A model generated the notes under the pieces. The model was not told where the DNA came from and ran no database searches. It was given only the letters and a program-made list of their open reading frames with translations. A program made the translations under genes and the position numbers. Shown one piece after another: positions 49-12,075 of a stretch of 64,000 nt of DNA. Where the stretch lies: contig CAJXOG010000001.1 of the NCBI GenBank assembly GCA_913057775.1, positions 1 through 64,000 of the forward strand, written 5' to 3'. Origin of the DNA: an uncultured Fodinibius sp. Lineage in GTDB: Bacteria; Bacteroidota; Rhodothermia; Balneolales; Balneolaceae. The first letter of the stretch is position 1; every line of letters begins with the position of its first letter.

Positions 49-486
49 ATGGGACAACAACAACTTTTACTCGTAATACTTGTAACGATTATCGTAGGTA
101 TCGCTACGGTCGTAGCTATTAATACTTTCTCTGCTGCATCTGACAGCGCTAACGTAGATGCTGCTCGTCAGGATATGTTAACAATGGCATCTAATGCTCA
201 AGGATGGTTTATGAAGCCAGCTATGATGGGTGGTGGCGGAAATGCATTTGATGATACAAATGGTGACGCAATTACTGTGGAAGATATCTGCCCAGGCACA
301 GTTTCTGGAACTGTTTGCACCACTGAAAATGGTTCTTATGACATCCAAAGTCCAACTGAAACTCAATTTACTCTTCGGGGTACTCCAGCCACTGCGGGTG
401 GATTGTTAACTGCAGATGTTATTGCCGATGACATTGACGGTGGCATAGAATATGACCCGGATTCTGGGACAACAATCGGATCTTAA
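49..486 (+). CDS. Type IV pilin-like major subunit with minimal leader
   Basis: 145 residues. The protein opens MGQQQLLL and runs straight into a hydrophobic helix (about residues 6-24), followed by a polar, Gly/Asp-rich globular part with a Cys pair near residues 81 and 90 and a C-terminal Ser. This is the layout of a type IV pilin or pseudopilin whose leader is cut to Met-Gly, with Gly where prepilin peptidase would cleave. The Glu normally at mature position 5 is absent. It lies at the head of a pilus assembly locus and is followed by its own strong terminator, so it is probably transcribed alone and abundantly. Pilin identity is inferred from the N-terminus and context; the globular domain is not recognised. 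Confidence 0.75.
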   Translation: MGQQQLLLVILVTIIVGIATVVAINTFSAASDSANVDAARQDMLTMASNAQGWFMKPAMMGGGGNAFDDTNGDAITVEDICPGTVSGTVCTTENGSYDIQSPTETQFTLRGTPATAGGLLTADVIADDIDGGIEYDPDSGTTIGS

Positions 487-2126: not shown

Positions 2127-3470
2127 ATGCCGCAATTTAGATTACGTGCTGTTTCGGCTCAGGGAAAGCTTATTAAATCTGAGTTTGAGGCGGACAGTAA
2201 AAAAGAAGCCGAAAACAGGGTGGAGAAGCTATCGCGTAAAAATGGTTTTAAGGTTAAGGGGGTTGATAAAAAGGAAACCTACCAATACAAGGTTCAAAAA
2301 GGGAATAAAGATGCCGTAACCGGGGAACAGGAGGCTTATTCCAAAGAAGAAGTGGAGAAAGCCCTGGTTAAGCTTGGGTATAAAGTTATCCGCATCAATA
2401 AAAAGTGGTTCGACTTTAAAGGGGGCGTGCCTCAATCAGAGGTGGTTACCTTTATTAGTCTCAGTGCCGACCTGTTGGAGCAACAGCTCAGCTATGATGA
2501 AATTCTGGAGCTTTTGTATGAGGACACCACCAACGCCCGCATGAAAGAGACTATCGGAACCATTCAAAAGGATCTCAAAGATGGAAAAGAGGGCGATGAG
2601 GTCTATAGCAAGCATGAAGATGTCTTTGGAGATTTTGCCTCCTACATGCTCAGCGTGGCTTCCACCAGTGGTAACATGGCCCAGGTATTCAGGAGTACGG
2701 CAAAATTTTTGGAGCGCGATGCCGAGTTTAAAAGCAATCTACGCCGATCACTGTTAATGCCAGCCATTACCGTGGTGGCAACAATAGGCGTGATTTTATT
2801 TTATGTGGGATATATTTTTCCTGCTACCGCCGAAGCCTTTGTAGAAATGGATATTAAATTGCCTCCCATGACGGCTGCTACTCTTGAGTTTAGTTACTGG
2901 CTGCAGGATAACTGGTTGATGCTTACTCTGGCGCATGTTATCCCTATTACGGCAGCGTGGTACTGGCTGACCCAAACAGCTAAGGGACAGTTATGGCGCG
3001 ATAAAAATATCATTAAAATACCTGTCATTGGTGATCTCATACACAAGACCAGCATCGAAATATTTGCGCGGGTATTTTATACGTTGTATAGTGGATCGGG
3101 ACAAAATATTGAAGTAATAAGAGTAGCTGCGGAAGCCTGCCGCAATAAATATATGGAGAAGCAGATTAAAGAAGTGGCGATCAAAATGATGTTGAAGGAG
3201 GGGGCCGGACTGATTGAATCGCTGAAGGCCACGGGAGTGTTTACGGATACGGCCATTAGCAGGTTTAAGCTTGGGGCCGAATCGGGGGCACTCAAACAAA
3301 ATGCCAAGCAGCTGGCAGAATACTATGAAACCCAAACCACCTATAAAATGGATACCATTGTGGATATGATAAGTTTGGGCGTAAACCTGTTTATTATGGT
3401 GGCCCTCATCGCTATTACGATTGTATCGGCCGAATCTGCACTAATTAGTCCTAACACAGGAGCCATGTAA
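2127..3470 (+). CDS. pilC: Inner-membrane platform protein, GspF/PilC family
   Basis: 447 residues. The N-terminal ~100 residues hold two successive segments of similar pattern (MPQFRLRAVSAQGK... and YQYKVQKGNKDAVTGE...), each like the small GspF N-terminal module, so the module looks duplicated. Two T2SSF-type helical domains follow, with membrane segments near residues 210-232, 262-283 and 415-437. GspF/PilC is the polytopic platform coupling the cytoplasmic ATPase to pilus growth. It lies between the O-ligase-like gene and the assembly ATPase, the usual company for this family. Length is slightly above the usual ~400 residues because of the extra N-terminal module. Confidence 0.88.
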   Translation: MPQFRLRAVSAQGKLIKSEFEADSKKEAENRVEKLSRKNGFKVKGVDKKETYQYKVQKGNKDAVTGEQEAYSKEEVEKALVKLGYKVIRINKKWFDFKGGVPQSEVVTFISLSADLLEQQLSYDEILELLYEDTTNARMKETIGTIQKDLKDGKEGDEVYSKHEDVFGDFASYMLSVASTSGNMAQVFRSTAKFLERDAEFKSNLRRSLLMPAITVVATIGVILFYVGYIFPATAEAFVEMDIKLPPMTAATLEFSYWLQDNWLMLTLAHVIPITAAWYWLTQTAKGQLWRDKNIIKIPVIGDLIHKTSIEIFARVFYTLYSGSGQNIEVIRVAAEACRNKYMEKQIKEVAIKMMLKEGAGLIESLKATGVFTDTAISRFKLGAESGALKQNAKQLAEYYETQTTYKMDTIVDMISLGVNLFIMVALIAITIVSAESALISPNTGAM

Positions 3471-3634: not shown

Positions 3635-5407
3635 ATGGGAAAAGTTAATACTCGCAGACATATTGGTGATATCCTGGTGAACAGGGATATTATTACCGCA
3701 GATCAGCTTAATGAGGCTTTGGCAATTTTACGGGAAGAACCGGAAACGTCGAACCGACGGCTGGGCCAAATTTTATATCAGGATCTTGGTATTGACAGGC
3801 ACGAGGTGATGAGCGAAATCGCCTCAATATATGCATTTGAAGAGGAGTTTGCCGATCAGGAGACTATTGATGAAGAGGATATCGAAGAGATTAAAGCTCA
3901 TATTGACGAACTTCCTGCCGAGGTTGTGGATGAGTTAGTGCACCAAAAAGCAGTGCCCCTTCGTCAAAACCAGAACACCTTAACGATTGCTGCTGCCGAT
4001 CCTTCCGACCCTACGCTCTCGAACATCGTCAGTAAGTTAAACTTCAAGCAGCACCATATTGTCTACTGCCGGTATGAGCTGGTAGAACAGATTTTAACGC
4101 AGGTTTACGAACAGAAGAACGAATTCCTGGACCTGCTTGAGGAAATTGAGTATGAAGAGCCGGACCTCGAGGAAGAGTCCGACGAAGTTGACGAGGAAGA
4201 AATAGATGCAGAAATCAACCAGAGTATGCTTAACTCTCTGGTTGAGGGTTTTCTTGTAGAGGGCGTTCGTAAAGGGGTAAGTGATATTCATATTATACCA
4301 TGTGGTCCGGCCTCGACCGATATTCGATTTCGTATTGATGGTAAGCTTCAGCTTTGGCATCAGCAAAATAATGTAAAGCCCGAAGCAATATCGGCGGTTG
4401 TAAAAGATAAGACGCGTAACGTAGACCGCTTTGAGCGCGATGCTTCGCAGGATGGTTTTATTCAGCGCCAGGTAGATGGGCACAACATCCGTTATCGTGT
4501 TTCCATTATGCCAATGGTTGGGGCACAGTTCGATAGAAAGTTTGAGTCTATTGTTATTCGTATTCTGGATGACCGTGAAGTTATTACGGATTTGAATGTG
4601 TTGGGGCTCCAGACGAAAGCGAAAGAGGATTTTGTAAAAGCGATTGAAAAGCCTTCGGGTATTGTCATTGTTACGGGACCTACGGGAAGTGGTAAGTCAA
4701 CGACGCTTGTTGCCGCACTTTATTATGTGATTACTCCCGAAGTTAATGTGCTTACGGTTGAGGAACCGGTAGAATATCTTATTGAAGGTGCCCGGCAGCT
4801 AAAAATTAACAACCACATGACCTTTGATCTGGCGATGCGGGGTATCTTGCGTCACGATCCTGATATTGTGCTCGTGGGTGAGATTCGTGACCTTAAGACG
4901 GCAGAAATCGCCATTAAACTGGCGAATACCGGTCACCTTACCTTTTCTACACTGCACACCAACGATGCTCCCAGTGCCATCTCAAGACTCTATAAGATGG
5001 GAGTTGAAACGTTTCTTATTGCAAATGCCGTAAACTTGATAATGGCTCAGCGTCTGGTGCGTACGCTCTGTAAGAGCTGCAAGGAAGAGTATAGACCACA
5101 TATTGAATCTGCAAAAGGAATTGGCTTTACAGAGGAAGAGTACGAAGAAACTACTTTTTATAAAGCAGTCGGATGCGATAAATGCTCAAATGGATATAAG
5201 GGTCGTGCTGCTATTATGGAAGCCCTGTATTTTGACAAAGAGATTCGAAAAATGATTTTAGAGTCAGGAGAAGAGATAGATGAGGTCGCTATTAAAGAGT
5301 ATGCGATGAGCCAGGGAATGTTAAGTTTGCGAGGTTCTGGCCGGGAGCGTATTAAGAACGGAATTACAACCATTGAAGAAATTGCAGCAATTACAATTGA
5401 AGATTAA
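3635..5407 (+). CDS. pilB: Pilus assembly / type II secretion ATPase, PilB/GspE family
   Basis: 590 residues. An N-terminal MshEN-like domain (about 1-165) leads through a very acidic linker (about 170-200) into the ATPase core. Seen directly: Walker A GPTGSGKST near residue 348, an intact Asp box TVEEPVEY, Walker B VGEIRD near 415, the His box GHLTFSTLHT near 435, and a zinc-type tetracysteine arrangement CKSC...CDKC (about 480-517). These mark the extension ATPase of a type IV pilus or type II system, acting as a cytoplasmic hexamer under the platform protein. MshEN domains in related ATPases bind c-di-GMP; whether this one does is not shown. ATG start at 3635. Confidence 0.93.
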   Translation: MGKVNTRRHIGDILVNRDIITADQLNEALAILREEPETSNRRLGQILYQDLGIDRHEVMSEIASIYAFEEEFADQETIDEEDIEEIKAHIDELPAEVVDELVHQKAVPLRQNQNTLTIAAADPSDPTLSNIVSKLNFKQHHIVYCRYELVEQILTQVYEQKNEFLDLLEEIEYEEPDLEEESDEVDEEEIDAEINQSMLNSLVEGFLVEGVRKGVSDIHIIPCGPASTDIRFRIDGKLQLWHQQNNVKPEAISAVVKDKTRNVDRFERDASQDGFIQRQVDGHNIRYRVSIMPMVGAQFDRKFESIVIRILDDREVITDLNVLGLQTKAKEDFVKAIEKPSGIVIVTGPTGSGKSTTLVAALYYVITPEVNVLTVEEPVEYLIEGARQLKINNHMTFDLAMRGILRHDPDIVLVGEIRDLKTAEIAIKLANTGHLTFSTLHTNDAPSAISRLYKMGVETFLIANAVNLIMAQRLVRTLCKSCKEEYRPHIESAKGIGFTEEEYEETTFYKAVGCDKCSNGYKGRAAIMEALYFDKEIRKMILESGEEIDEVAIKEYAMSQGMLSLRGSGRERIKNGITTIEEIAAITIED

Positions 5408-5499: not shown

Positions 5500-6003
5500 A
5501 TGGCAACTGATAACCAAGCAGAAAAAGAGGCAACGCCAGAGCACATTCGGCAGTTCTTAAAAGAACCGCCCTTGCTATTAAGGAACTTTCATTACGAAGA
5601 TATAATGGAATTCTTAAATCTGGGGTCTGAAGAACGGTTTGTGCAGGATGATGTGATTATTAACGAAGAGGAGTATGTCAATTCTGCTTATCTTATTACA
5701 CAGGGCAAAGTTTCTATTTGGAAAGATAATATTCAGCTCGCAACCCTTGATAAGGGTAATTTTTTGGGTGAAACTTTTCTCTTTAGTAAAAATAACAGGA
5801 TGGCAAAGGTTGTTTCGGAAGGGGAATCACAGCTGCTTAAATTTGATCGTTACGAAGCCTTGAACTTTTTCCGAAAAAAACCTGAAAAACTGTTTAATAT
5901 TTTTACCCGTAATATTATTGAGATTCAGCAGCAAAAGATCAGTAATATGAATGTGCAGCTGTTGCAGCTCAAAAAGCGTCTTTTAGACGATAGTAACTGG
6001 TAA
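5500..6003 (+). CDS. Cyclic-nucleotide-binding domain protein
   Basis: 167 residues forming essentially one cNMP-binding domain (about 25-135) plus a C-terminal helix (about 140-167) likely to pair or coil. The phosphate-binding cassette is recognisable as GETFLFSKNNRMAKV, keeping the Gly-Glu and the Arg that contact the cyclic phosphate in CRP-type domains. There is no DNA-binding helix-turn-helix, so it is not a CRP regulator. It sits between the extension ATPase and the PilT-like ATPase, which suggests it relays a small-molecule signal to the motor. The ligand and partner are unknown; binding could also have been lost with the fold retained as an adaptor. Confidence 0.82.
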   Translation: MATDNQAEKEATPEHIRQFLKEPPLLLRNFHYEDIMEFLNLGSEERFVQDDVIINEEEYVNSAYLITQGKVSIWKDNIQLATLDKGNFLGETFLFSKNNRMAKVVSEGESQLLKFDRYEALNFFRKKPEKLFNIFTRNIIEIQQQKISNMNVQLLQLKKRLLDDSNW

Positions 6004-6244
6004 TTGCTCCATTTGTTATACTTAGAACTCCAAAATTACGGTAACGAAAAATTTTTTTGGAAATATTAAAATTATTTAATGTTTTGAGGTATATATAAGA
6101 AAGCCGATCATTTATTTGGATTAATAAACAGATGTATGTTCATTAATATTGAAAATATTTCGTAACAAAGAACCTCATTGCAGTTCTTAATTAACAGCAG
6201 ACTACGAATATTAAATGATTAAATAGGAAAAAATAGATTAATTG

Positions 6245-7495
6245 ATGGAAGTAGGGGTACAAAAAGATAGTGTTAAAGAACTTATAAAACCGCTTGCTGC
6301 TCAGCTCAGTGACAGTTTAAAGGGATTGGAACGGCATCGAGAAATTGGTAAAATTATTGACAGCCAGGACGAAGAGACTCGTTCGGAACTGCGCGACGCT
6401 ATTGAGCGCCTGCTCAAAAAGATGTATAAGAATGAAGCTTCTGATATTGATCTGGGAGGACCCGGCTGTGGTAATAAGGTCTGGTATCGCATCCACGGTG
6501 ATAAATCACCGGCCAAAAATGCGCCTGAGTTTTCTCTTATCGAAACCGACTTTTTGCTGCATAATTTAATAATGCCCAGCCAGCGAAAGCATCTGCTTGA
6601 GAATCGTAATTTAGACTTCTCTTATTCCTTGTCGGGAACTGATTCCATATCAGGTGCTCGCCGTTATCGTGCCGATATGTATTTTGACTTGGAGCATTTG
6701 GCATTGAACATGCGTAAAATCGATAACGAAATTCGACCGTTTAAAGGGCTTAATCTGCATCCCGAAGTAGCAAAAGCGCTTAGTCTTAAATATTATAAGT
6801 ATGGAATGACGCTTGTAACGGGAATTACGGGTTCAGGTAAGTCATCAACTCTTGATACGGTAATTGACGCAAACAACCGGACGGTTGATTCTCATATTGT
6901 TATCATAGCTTCTCCGGTTGAGCTTGTTCATGAGCCCAAAAAGTCAGTAGTCCGCCACCGCGAGGTAGGTCGGGATGTTAAGTCATTTAAGGAAGGCGCT
7001 ATACAGGCACTGCGTCAAGACCCTGATATTATTGTTATTGGGGAGCTTCGGGACCCCGAAACGATAATGACTGCTCTTGAAATTACAGATTCCGGGCATA
7101 AAACGTTTGGAACGCTCCATACTAGTTCTGCGATGGAAAGTATTGAGCGTATTCTTGGTGAGGTACCACCCGATGAGCAAAATCGTGTGCGCACACGTTT
7201 GGCAGATGTTCTAACTTGTGTGATAAGTCAAAAGCTGATTCCGAGTCTTGACGGCAAACGGGTATTGGCTAAAGAGGTTTTAATGGTAACGAGCTCTGTA
7301 AAAGCTGCTATCAGAAATAATAATGTCAATGAGATTTACCAGATGCTGATGGAAGGTAGTGAGCAAGGGATGATGACCATGGAGCAGGATCTTAAACGCC
7401 TCTATGATCGGGGGAAAATTTCACAAGAGGAAGCCATTAATAATGCCAATAACAAAAAACGGCTAAAACAGCTTATTTCAGAAACCCAATATTAA
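6245..7495 (+). CDS. PilT-like pilus retraction ATPase with altered Asp box
   Basis: 416 residues from the ATG at 6245; a TTG lies one codon upstream. Walker A GITGSGKSST is near residue 194, Walker B VIGELRD near 266 and His box SGHKTFGTLHT near 284, with the Arg-rich and C-terminal helices of the PilT/PilU family. The N-terminal region (~190 residues) is longer than in classic PilT. Where the family has IEDPIE, this protein has VIIASPVELVH, so two conserved acidic residues of the Asp box are gone. It may be a weak or accessory motor subunit, like PilU in species with two ATPases. A 240-bp gap separates it from the preceding gene, so it may have its own promoter; pilMN follows closely. Confidence 0.86.
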   Translation: MEVGVQKDSVKELIKPLAAQLSDSLKGLERHREIGKIIDSQDEETRSELRDAIERLLKKMYKNEASDIDLGGPGCGNKVWYRIHGDKSPAKNAPEFSLIETDFLLHNLIMPSQRKHLLENRNLDFSYSLSGTDSISGARRYRADMYFDLEHLALNMRKIDNEIRPFKGLNLHPEVAKALSLKYYKYGMTLVTGITGSGKSSTLDTVIDANNRTVDSHIVIIASPVELVHEPKKSVVRHREVGRDVKSFKEGAIQALRQDPDIIVIGELRDPETIMTALEITDSGHKTFGTLHTSSAMESIERILGEVPPDEQNRVRTRLADVLTCVISQKLIPSLDGKRVLAKEVLMVTSSVKAAIRNNNVNEIYQMLMEGSEQGMMTMEQDLKRLYDRGKISQEEAINNANNKKRLKQLISETQY

Positions 7496-7518: not shown

Positions 7519-9216
7519 ATGTTTGGAAAAAAAGAATATGTAGGACTTACAGTTCAGGATGACCTTATCCGTGTGGCACGGCTGCGTGTTGAAGGTGGTT
7601 CGGCTAAAATTATTAAGTTGGATCGCTTTTCACTTGTTGAAAAGATAGAGCAGCATGCACAGGCCCAGAACTTGGATACTGATGCTGAGCAAGAAGTTGC
7701 TTTTGAAGAAGACGACGATGCTGATTCAATATTTGGCTTGGAAGAGGGCGAAGAAGAGGATATTGAAGATGATTTTGATCTGTCGGAACTAGAGGAGGAA
7801 GAAGAGGATGAAGAAGATATGGAGCTCGATATGGTTGAGGAGGCCGACACGCCTCAATCCAATGAGCTTCTTATTTATAATATCCTATCTGATATTGACA
7901 GTGAGAAAGTTTATTTGGGATTAAATATTCCTGCCGGTCATACTATTTTTCAGCTTATCAGGGATACTGATTTTTCTGAGGTTAAAGAGAAAGATCTCAT
8001 TCAGGACCTCGAGGATAAACTCGAATCAATTTACGGCACTCCTAAATCCCCTGATAAATATTCTTATGAAGTTCGGGAAGACGGTTCCCTGTTACTCGGT
8101 TCTGTGGAGGATGAATCGATTACCTTAAAAGCCGTAAACAGGGCACGTGAGCTTTATACGGGGAAACTTGACATACAAAGTATTATTCCTGATGAGATTG
8201 CGCTTGTTGGACTGGTAAGGGCTAACTATGAGCTTGATGCTGATGAAATGACGGGTATTATCCAGTTTGGGAAAGAAACCTGTCGCGTAGTTTTCATGAA
8301 AGGAGAAGAGATTTGGCTGGTTTCTCCCATAATAAATGAGGGAACGGAAAAGAAATCCTTCATGAATACGGTATTTAGTAAAATTCTTTTCCAGTTGGAT
8401 ACAGGAGAAGTGCCCAGTTTGGATCGTATTCTCTTGGCTAATAATACGAGGGGAAGTGATGCGGTAGATTTCTTTAAACAGAATTTTCCGGATATTCACG
8501 TAGAAAACCTGGCAATAAAGGAAGAGTTTATTGATAATCTGAGCGTAGATTCTTCCAGTATCCCATCATTCACAACTGCCATTGGTTCTGCATTGGCCGC
8601 TTCGGGTGCAAAAGATGAGGTTTTCCCAAAATTATCATTTGTTCCTAAATATGTTGAGGACCGCCAGAAGATATTTCAGCTGCAATGGCACGGAATGCTC
8701 ATTCTATTTTTGATATTTTTGACGCCCATTACTTTTAATTACTTCTATACACAGAATGCCCAACAGATAGATTCTTATGAGCGTGATTTAACTCAAATGA
8801 ATTCACAGCTCGAACAACTGGAGCCTATTGTAGATGAAGTGGATGTTCTGCAGCAGGATTTGTCGACTCTCCAAGAGAAACTGACGATGCTGGATACGCT
8901 CACACAAGGCAGCAAAGAGTGGTCTGCTAAACTTGATCTGTTGAATAAAGGCATTCAATCAGTAGGTAATTCATGGTTAGCTTCTTTTTCCCAGTCTGGG
9001 GATGGTACCTTTATTCAGGGATACACATTGTACAGAAACAGAATTCCCAGAATCGTAAATATTTTTGATGAGGCTACGCTGCTGAATGTCAATAATGAAG
9101 AAATGCGTGAAAAGCAGGTATATACATTTTCAATTCTGATACAATCTTTTGCCGAATCCGATTCTATTTATTCACCTTCATCACCAGAAGAAGTTAAAAA
9201 TCTGATAGGCAAATAA
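7519..9216 (+). CDS. PilM-PilN fusion, pilus alignment subcomplex
   Basis: 565 residues. Residues 1-385 have the actin-like PilM pattern (opening MFGKKEYVGLTVQDDLIRVA), interrupted at about 67-115 by a stretch very rich in Glu and Asp. A single membrane segment follows at about 391-411 (MLILFLIFLTPITFNYFY), then a coiled coil (about 415-460) and a PilN/GspL-like alpha-beta domain to the end. In most type IV pili PilM is cytoplasmic and binds the short N-terminus of the separate bitopic PilN; here the two appear joined. Only 17 bases separate it from the next gene, which supplies the PilO/PilP functions. It could equally be described as a GspL-like protein. Confidence 0.82.
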   Translation: MFGKKEYVGLTVQDDLIRVARLRVEGGSAKIIKLDRFSLVEKIEQHAQAQNLDTDAEQEVAFEEDDDADSIFGLEEGEEEDIEDDFDLSELEEEEEDEEDMELDMVEEADTPQSNELLIYNILSDIDSEKVYLGLNIPAGHTIFQLIRDTDFSEVKEKDLIQDLEDKLESIYGTPKSPDKYSYEVREDGSLLLGSVEDESITLKAVNRARELYTGKLDIQSIIPDEIALVGLVRANYELDADEMTGIIQFGKETCRVVFMKGEEIWLVSPIINEGTEKKSFMNTVFSKILFQLDTGEVPSLDRILLANNTRGSDAVDFFKQNFPDIHVENLAIKEEFIDNLSVDSSSIPSFTTAIGSALAASGAKDEVFPKLSFVPKYVEDRQKIFQLQWHGMLILFLIFLTPITFNYFYTQNAQQIDSYERDLTQMNSQLEQLEPIVDEVDVLQQDLSTLQEKLTMLDTLTQGSKEWSAKLDLLNKGIQSVGNSWLASFSQSGDGTFIQGYTLYRNRIPRIVNIFDEATLLNVNNEEMREKQVYTFSILIQSFAESDSIYSPSSPEEVKNLIGK

Positions 9217-9233
9217 TTTAGTAAACACGATAT

Positions 9234-10115
9234 ATGTCCTACGGTCTACGAAATACAATCATTCTTCTTGTTGTCTTGACCACTTTTATAGGTGGGGGAT
9301 GGAGCTATATTTACTTTTATCAGCAGCCAAAGTTAGAAGATTTGGAGCAAAATGTTGAGCAAACGCGGCAAGAGTTAAATCAGAAACAGCAGAAAGCTGA
9401 TCAATTGCCGATGCTTGAAAACCAATTTAAAGAGGCCACGAAATTTTTCAATAATTACAATAAAGGGTTATATCCCAACAGTAACGAAGATAATGTATAT
9501 GATTTTCTGGACCGGGTAAGTACAGGATCTGCATATACGGAGTTTACCTTTAGTTTTTCAGATTCGACCACATATAATCAGTATGGGGTAATTTCGATGA
9601 AGGTTACCGGGCAGGGATACTACCGGAATTTTATAAATTTTATTCGTCAGATCGAATTAAGTAAACCGTTAAATAAAGTTAGTCAGGTTACTGTAAATCC
9701 CATTAATGAACTCGATTCTTACGGAAAAGTTAATTACCAATTTTCTCTGGAAAGCTTTTATGACCGTGTTAAATTATTGGGCGAAGCTGACTTAACAATT
9801 AATAATAATTTACTTGGATCGGTATATAATCCATTCTATCCATTTATTAGGTCAGTCAAAGAAAATGAGGACAATCTTGTGAACATAGAAAATAGTGAGC
9901 TTTTGGCGATAAGCTCCAATAAGATCTTTTTACTCGATCAACAGGGGATAATGCAACGACTTACCGAAGGAGATGAAGTATATCTTGGAGAACTTTCATC
10001 AATAGATATTGATGAGGGAACCGCTTCTTTTACTCTTAATAAAGGTGGAATCGTTGAGCGAATAACCTTGCAGGTAAATAATGATGAAGAAGATGAAAAT
10101 GAAAGCAGTAATTGA
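9234..10115 (+). CDS. PilO-PilP fusion, pilus alignment subcomplex
   Basis: 293 residues. A short cytoplasmic start, one membrane helix (about 8-28), a coiled coil (about 35-75) and a ferredoxin-like domain to about residue 180 give the PilO layout. The C-terminal part (about 212-285) has the pattern of the PilP/GspC homology region: a strand-rich segment with IFLLDQQGIMQRLTEGDEVY then SIDIDEGTASFTLNKGGIVE. PilP normally is a separate lipoprotein tethering PilN/O to the secretin; here that domain seems appended to PilO. It follows pilMN by 17 bases and ends one base before the secretin start. The PilO call is firm; the PilP-like tail rests on pattern only. Confidence 0.75.
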   Translation: MSYGLRNTIILLVVLTTFIGGGWSYIYFYQQPKLEDLEQNVEQTRQELNQKQQKADQLPMLENQFKEATKFFNNYNKGLYPNSNEDNVYDFLDRVSTGSAYTEFTFSFSDSTTYNQYGVISMKVTGQGYYRNFINFIRQIELSKPLNKVSQVTVNPINELDSYGKVNYQFSLESFYDRVKLLGEADLTINNNLLGSVYNPFYPFIRSVKENEDNLVNIENSELLAISSNKIFLLDQQGIMQRLTEGDEVYLGELSSIDIDEGTASFTLNKGGIVERITLQVNNDEEDENESSN

Positions 10116-10116
10116 T

Positions 10117-12075
10117 ATGAAATCTTTTAGATACCATAAATTTATTCTTTTTACACTGGCATTGCTATTTATTGCTATTGGTAGTGTGAATAGTCAAAAC
10201 CGGGACAATCTGCCTGCAGAGTTCAGAGAGTATACCAATCCCGAGGAAGTGGTTCGATTTGACAGAACCACCTCTTTTGCTCGTGCTGTTGATGTGATAA
10301 ATGAATTTTCGCAGCAATTCCGGAACAAGGCGGTTATCAATCGTACGGATGTAGAGGGCGAAATAGGCATCTCAGTTCCACCTATGCATTGGATGGATGC
10401 CTTAAAGCTAATTTTGCGTGTTAAAGAGCTACATTTAGTTGATAAACAGGAGTTTTTTGAGATTGTGACCCGTGAATCTATTGAAGCGGAAGCGCTAGGC
10501 CAGGCAGCATCTCAACCTGCAGCAGGCGGTGGAGAAGGTGAGGGTCCGGTAGCTACTACCCAAACTCACGAAGTGAGAATTAATGCTATCTTTTTTGAAG
10601 GGAATCGTCGTGCCCTGCAAGAAATTGGTGTAGACTGGTCAACTATTTCAGAAAATGTTCCCGAATCTGTATTAGGGGGTGGCCAAGGCGGACAAGGTGG
10701 AGGAGGTGGCGGCCAAGGGGGTGGCCAGCAGGGCCAAACTCCTCAAGTACCTAACTCTGAATTTGATGGACCTTTTGTGCAGGTGAATTCAAAAGGAGCC
10801 CAGAGTGTATCGCAAAATGTATTTAACGCATTGATCAATGTGGGTGAAATTGGCAATACCGGAATAGAGGTACAAACACTTTTTAGTGCATTTGAAGCGG
10901 ATAATCTTGGTGAAATTCTAGCATCACCTACCGTAAAAGTGATGGATGGTCAGGAGGGTAATATCCAGGTAGGACAGGACTTTTCTATTAAGCAGCGTGA
11001 TATCGCAGGTAATGTTGTTGAACAGTTTTTCTCGGTTGGTACTATTCTTACGGTTACTCCGCAGGTACTTACCCAGCGTGATACTACCTTCATCCACTTG
11101 GATATTGAGGCCGAGCGATCATCAGCTCAGCCCGATCCGGTAAGTACTATTATTAACAAGCAAGAAGCCCAAACGCAGGCCTTGCTGCTGGATGGAGAGG
11201 CAACAGTTATTGCGGGATTATACAGGACTGAAAAGGCCAATGTTCGACGAGGAATTCCTATATTGAAAGATCTTCCGCCGTGGTTTTTCGGATTGCGATA
11301 TCTGTTTGGATATGAATCTCATGATTATCAGATGAGGGAGCTTGTAATATTAATACAAGCATCCTTAGAGCCTACTATACCCGATCGATATGGTAAAAAA
11401 GATTTCAGAACTAAGTATGAAGTTCTGCAGGATGAACGAGATCGAATGCAGGAAGAAGCTTCAAAAGGCCAAGAAATCATGAATCGTGAAAAGGATGAAG
11501 ACCTCCAGGAAATGTTTGATGGTGAGCCGGAGGAAGAAGAGCCAGAGCCCCAGGTAAAACAGGAAGAAGAGAAGGCTGAACCAGAACCTAAACCTGAGGA
11601 TAAAGATTCGACTGATGATCAAAAATCTGAGAATGCCAAACCGGATTCATTAGATCAGGAAAATGACCAGCAGGACACACCGGAAACAATGAAGGATCCG
11701 GAAGTAAAAACAGAGAAGGTCGAACTTAATCTAGGTGCAGGAGAAGATGAGGCTCAAGCTGATACCGCAAACCAAGGTAGCGAGTCTGAGCCTGAAACTC
11801 CCGAATCCGATGATGATGGCGATGTTGAAAAAAACAGTGATACGCTTTCTGCCTATTACATTATTGGCGGATCATTCCGTGTAATGGAAAATGCAAGAGA
11901 GCATAAACAGGAGCTTGACGAGAAAGGATTTAATGCATCAATTATTAGGATGCCGGAAACAGACATCCATTTGGTTACCTATCAGGGATTTGATGATCTG
12001 AACAGTGCTAAAAAAGGTCTTGCTGACATTAGACAAAATCAGAATTCGGAAGCCTGGGTATATAAAGCGAAATAA
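10117..12075 (+). CDS. pilQ: Secretin (PilQ/GspD family) with C-terminal SPOR domain
   Basis: 652 residues from the ATG at 10117, chosen because it gives a clean signal peptide (MKSFRYHKFILFTLALLFIA..., to about residue 27) and begins one base after the preceding stop; in-frame ATGs from 10081 exist. An STN/N0-like domain lies at about 45-115. The secretin core spans about 150-425, with VGTILTVTPQV, ATVIAGLYRTEK and RRGIPILKDLP typical of the family, and a Gly/Gln-only insert at about 181-206. A long Glu/Pro/Asp-rich linker (about 440-575) leads to a SPOR-like repeat (about 578-652). Secretins form the outer-membrane gate for the pilus; SPOR domains bind peptidoglycan. No AMIN domain is seen. 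Confidence 0.9.
   Translation: MKSFRYHKFILFTLALLFIAIGSVNSQNRDNLPAEFREYTNPEEVVRFDRTTSFARAVDVINEFSQQFRNKAVINRTDVEGEIGISVPPMHWMDALKLILRVKELHLVDKQEFFEIVTRESIEAEALGQAASQPAAGGGEGEGPVATTQTHEVRINAIFFEGNRRALQEIGVDWSTISENVPESVLGGGQGGQGGGGGGQGGGQQGQTPQVPNSEFDGPFVQVNSKGAQSVSQNVFNALINVGEIGNTGIEVQTLFSAFEADNLGEILASPTVKVMDGQEGNIQVGQDFSIKQRDIAGNVVEQFFSVGTILTVTPQVLTQRDTTFIHLDIEAERSSAQPDPVSTIINKQEAQTQALLLDGEATVIAGLYRTEKANVRRGIPILKDLPPWFFGLRYLFGYESHDYQMRELVILIQASLEPTIPDRYGKKDFRTKYEVLQDERDRMQEEASKGQEIMNREKDEDLQEMFDGEPEEEEPEPQVKQEEEKAEPEPKPEDKDSTDDQKSENAKPDSLDQENDQQDTPETMKDPEVKTEKVELNLGAGEDEAQADTANQGSESEPETPESDDDGDVEKNSDTLSAYYIIGGSFRVMENAREHKQELDEKGFNASIIRMPETDIHLVTYQGFDDLNSAKKGLADIRQNQNSEAWVYKAK

Follow-up and report, generated by a model that had tools for sequence, protein, structure and literature searches.

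The last gene of a type IV pilus operon in an uncultured Fodinibius sp. encodes a PilQ-like secretin that ends in a SPOR domain. The gene lies in the window, i.e. the whole stretch of 64,000 nucleotides that was analysed. We propose, with a probability of about two in three, that this domain is a tethered peptidoglycan-binding module that anchors or positions the pilus. The proposal is based on the presence of the domain, its fold and conservation, the lack of an AMIN domain, and the separate recruitment of SPOR to the PilM-PilN protein of related operons. It bears on how type IV pilus machines that have no AMIN domain are placed in, and held by, the cell wall.

The pil operon and its secretin

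The operon has the order pilin, pilC, pilB, a cyclic-nucleotide-binding gene, pilT, a pilM-pilN fusion, pilO and, last, pilQ:

49 to 486, plus strand: putative major pilin (hydrophobic N terminus; homologues in the same position)
2127 to 3470, plus strand: pilC, platform protein (operon order; homologues in the same position)
3635 to 5407, plus strand: pilB, extension ATPase (T2SSE and MshEN, Pfam)
5500 to 6003, plus strand: cyclic-nucleotide-binding protein (PF00027)
6242 to 7495, plus strand: pilT, retraction ATPase (TIGR01420, 320.9 bits against a cut-off of 319.1)
7519 to 9216, plus strand: pilM-pilN fusion, SPOR-bearing in other lineages (weak Amuc_1101 PilM-like match; homologues match PF05137)
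9234 to 10115, plus strand: pilO, 293 residues (PF04350; profile match to M. xanthus PilO)
10117 to 12075, plus strand: PilQ-like type IV pilus secretin with a C-terminal SPOR domain, 652 residues (Pfam Secretin and SPOR; pil operon)

The putative pilin begins MGQQQLLLVILV; any leader would thus have only about two residues, and a Glu at the usual position 5 is not evident. The cyclic-nucleotide-binding gene in the pilB-pilT interval is kept in many operons, which hints at second-messenger control. PilO carries a C-terminal extension of about 100 residues with the conserved pattern VYLG.L ... F.LNKGG, and this extension may, judging from its sequence, be a fused PilP/GspC-like domain. The PilO profile matched no PilP among the solved structures, and no separate pilP gene was seen.

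The secretin core, together with the pilMNO(P)Q gene order and the presence of PilB, PilT and PilC, places the last gene product in the type IV pilus secretin class. The core was recognised by PF00263 at residues 259-416 (105.8 bits against a cut-off of 27.5). The best NCBIfam match was the PilQ family TIGR02515, with a score of 109.6 bits that is below its cut-off of 284.35; the protein was therefore filed as a divergent, PilQ-like secretin and not as a TIGR02515 PilQ. Its parts are as follows:

10117 to 10197, plus strand: likely Sec signal peptide, residues 1-27 (hydrophobic N-terminal segment, read from the sequence; no lipobox seen)
10675 to 10746, plus strand: Gly/Gln-rich insertion, about residues 187-210, at the boundary between the N-terminal region and the secretin core (sequence reading)
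10891 to 11364, plus strand: secretin core, residues 259-416 (Pfam)
11359 to 11841, plus strand: acidic low-complexity linker, about residues 415-575 (composition; fast divergence)
11842 to 12072, plus strand: SPOR domain (Pfam, alignment, profile, AF2 model, structure searches)

The long acidic linker and the missing AMIN domain, both of which had been described in the initial annotation, were borne out. The linker comprises 161 residues, 35% of which are Asp or Glu, and no AMIN match was obtained in the window secretin, in its 51 homologues or in the whole genome.

The C-terminal tail is a SPOR domain

The initial annotation had also read the end of the secretin as a SPOR-like repeat. The PF05036 search that it suggested for residues 578-652 gave a match at residues 578-649 with 25.4 bits, above the cut-off of 21 (E 1.8e-5), and this identity was confirmed by profile comparison, by the predicted fold and by structure searches. 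In a six-frame scan of the 3.1 Mb genome, the tail scored 29.3 bits and was one of six SPOR places. A profile built from 29 homologous tails matched the SPOR structures of CwlC (E 1e-6) and FtsN (E 0.005). The AlphaFold2 model of the tail, for which five sequences were the input, reached a pLDDT of 88.9, and its predicted order beta-alpha-beta-beta-alpha-beta is that of the RNP-like SPOR fold. The SPOR topology was also visible in a single-sequence model of the full-length secretin, although the pLDDT of that model was only 36.

Structure searches with the tail model (Foldseek, VIA-align) returned mostly SPOR domains as top matches. The five best PDB matches in Foldseek were the SPOR domains of CwlC, DedD, RlpA (twice) and FtsN. 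With VIA-align, the model superimposed on CwlC (Z 8.5, rmsd 3.3, 75 aligned residues), RlpA (Z 8.4, rmsd 3.2, 73 aligned) and DedD (Z 7.8, rmsd 3.4, 77 aligned). PF05036 alone recognises 19 of the 51 homologous tails at E<=0.01, the remainder being assigned by alignment. The tail is not a chance match because it is present in all of the 51 long homologues.

Distribution of the SPOR-bearing secretin

A search of 92 Balneolaceae genomes gave a match in 74, the named loci closest to the window being those of Aliifodinibius/Fodinibius (80-83% identity in the best segment). From these genomes 51 distinct long secretins of about 600-710 residues were extracted; their alignment places the SPOR tail in every one, at 44-84% identity to the window protein. 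Outside this set stand G042, which has a tail match in the search table, and G058, which is truncated. The cultured strains Fodinibius halophilus and F. salipaludis are among the carriers of the gene. A short secretin of about 405-428 residues was found in 17 genomes. In the tree of 70 operons, the 35 PilQ-SPOR operons form one clade with a support of 1.0. No C-terminal SPOR tail was found on the secretin in the 31 operons read outside the family, where the secretin open frames have about 400-560 residues, a few being partial.

Five operons carry a SPOR-less secretin of about 450-480 residues, either alone (G011, G016, G017) or adjoining a SPOR-bearing secretin (G018, G077), so that two genomes hold both types. 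They belong to the genus of the window and to one other genome of the family (G077). SPOR was found neither in the secretin nor in PilMN of these five operons. The open reading frames adjoining the SPOR-less secretins, which were read without a Pfam scan, revealed no SPOR gene that could compensate. The existence of such sister operons shows that SPOR is not universally needed and is dispensable for some pili. In the SPOR-less operons of the same genus and of G077 (L086-L090), the pilB-pilT interval holds three additional open reading frames, which are minor-pilin-like in the two examined. G244 has, slightly downstream of a SPOR-less pilus secretin, a distinct open frame that encodes SPOR together with PKD-like repeats (L108:4577-6376).

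SPOR on the PilM-PilN fusion of relatives

A second Balneolaceae clade has a short secretin and bears a SPOR domain at the C terminus of the PilM-PilN fusion, in 10 of 10 operons, one of which (L094) was assigned from its clade and lies outside the nine-tail profile described below. These fusions have 750-790 residues versus about 565 usually, with one cut by a contig end and one split in frame; the latter consists of two overlapping open frames, possibly a frameshift (L095:10403-12674, G067). A Pfam scan of two of them confirmed SPOR and gave the PilN family PF05137 at or just under its cut-off. PilMN-SPOR was also observed in three species of one genus from another family of the same class. 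The two that were scanned scored 20.0 and 15.9 bits, both below the Pfam cut-off of 21; the motif is, however, plain by eye and the tail profiles match.

The genome of the window encodes a HU-TM-SPOR protein (L003:580-1734) beside exbB/tolQ-like and exbD-like genes. The profile of the nine PilMN tails matched this protein with 97.7 bits, whereas the PilQ-tail profile gave only 21.7 bits. The HU-SPOR family is thus the likely source of the PilMN SPOR of the second clade, and it is no close relative of the PilQ tail. We also considered whether one and the same SPOR tail had moved between PilQ and PilMN, but discarded this idea in view of the far greater closeness of the PilMN SPOR to HU-SPOR. 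In the tree, the first PilMN-SPOR group (10 operons) is monophyletic with a support of 1.0, and its position with respect to SPOR-less relatives is tentative.

These observations suggest that the periplasmic side of one machine probably acquired SPOR on three or more occasions, although loss on some branches or transfer of whole operons may account for part of the pattern. A broader reading, which we put forward tentatively and at somewhat less than even odds, is that at least three captures in Balneolaceae and the second family (once by PilQ and twice by PilM-N) provided a portable, convergent substitute for AMIN, the PilQ version of which would have shifted to a non-canonical ligand. The PilQ-SPOR, PilMN-SPOR and SPOR-less sister operons form a natural comparison for asking whether a wall-binding module sets the position of the pilus.

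Glycan-contact residues and the proposed role

The position of the conserved Gln, Q270 in RlpA, is occupied by Ile in 45 and by Val in 6 of the 51 tails. Furthermore, the position of R309, which belongs to the basic patch of RlpA, is basic in one tail and non-basic in the other 50. The structural alignment agrees on these positions (residue 6 of the model corresponds to RlpA 266). The tails conserve another pattern, [VI]GGSF ... VAY.GF ... EAWL. With the Gln and the R309 position lost, the preferred ligand of the tail may differ, and specificity for denuded septal glycan becomes a weaker expectation that cannot be assumed. The Gln is also missing in the HU-SPOR protein of the same genome, so that not every SPOR keeps it. 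SPOR domains contact glycan largely through backbone atoms (PMC6895207); since many contacts are of this kind, glycan binding by the PilQ tail may persist, and a different basic surface could act as a substitute.

According to our proposal, each PilQ subunit would carry a SPOR head at the end of a flexible, acidic linker, about 120-190 residues long. The secretin ring would then present many heads that bind the wall, at least a dozen should its size match that of known rings. These heads would keep the channel fixed in the wall and probably guide secretin assembly to the wall regions favoured by SPOR. The domain would thereby do the work of the N-terminal AMIN of other PilQ proteins. The initial annotation had stressed that the C terminus must loop back to the wall. 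The topology is a minor worry, because a periplasmic C terminus is easily carried there by a low-complexity linker, the length of which ranges from 118 to 190 residues among the homologues. A TsaP- or FimV-like partner is possible because LysM proteins exist in the genome; none is encoded within the pil operon of the window.

A stronger form of the proposal, and one that can hold together with it, is that SPOR serves specifically to direct PilQ to the septum or the poles by binding denuded glycan. Such targeting, which the initial annotation had already suggested, is plausible, and we consider it a reasonable possibility that falls short of an even chance. Denuded glycan is the ligand of structurally characterised SPOR domains (PMC6895207), the genome encodes an Amidase_3 enzyme that could make it, and AMIN has this role on PilQ elsewhere (PMC10653833). 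The loss of the conserved Gln and of one basic-patch position in essentially all tails argues against it. The same uniform loss of glycan-contact side chains, accompanied by the other conserved pattern, is what would be expected if the fold had been repurposed for docking to a protein, for example an envelope protein or a pilotin, rather than to glycan. We regard docking as rather unlikely, since backbone contacts could still bind glycan and the separate recruitment of SPOR to another subunit more easily fits a shared wall ligand.

The tail is under purifying selection (pN/pS 0.03-0.25); in most pairs its level of constraint is intermediate, above that of the linker and below that of the secretin core, while the divergence of the linker exceeds that of the core in all ten pairs and that of SPOR in most. 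That the tail is a neutral or decaying fusion without function in the pilus, as the SPOR-less sister operons might suggest, is thus very improbable given this selection relative to the linker and the retention of the tail in 51 of 51 homologues at 44-84% identity.

Comparison with known systems

The literature searched contained neither a description of a PilQ with a C-terminal SPOR nor experimental work on such a protein. The C-terminal SPOR on a pilus secretin, the apparent reappearance of SPOR on PilMN and the lost glycan-contact residues appear to be new within that literature. The predicted fold of the tail is that of the SPOR domains of the division proteins RlpA, FtsN, DamX and DedD and of CwlC. 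In most SPOR proteins the SPOR domain is a small head carried by a disordered linker (PMC6895207). The SPOR of the PilQ-like secretin differs from these proteins in being attached to a secretin and in having lost the conserved Gln as well as one or more residues of the basic patch.

The AMIN-type PilQ proteins of P. aeruginosa, M. xanthus and V. cholerae likewise combine a pilus secretin with a peptidoglycan-binding module. AMIN on PilQ binds peptidoglycan and is needed for septal or polar recruitment in P. aeruginosa and M. xanthus (PMC5285504, PMC10653833). This module is N-terminal, whereas the window secretin has a C-terminal SPOR and no AMIN. In the portion consulted of a survey of 197 T4aP secretins, the architectures are AMIN-N0-N3-secretin and SPOR is not mentioned (PMC7545093). 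The combination of secretin and SPOR is not unprecedented, however, because LspD, the T2SS secretin of Legionella, carries its own predicted peptidoglycan-binding SPOR (PMC9239104, PMC6617341). In LspD the domain is N-terminal, precedes N0 and belongs to a type II secretion system, while in the window it is C-terminal, follows a long linker and is encoded in a type IV pilus operon.
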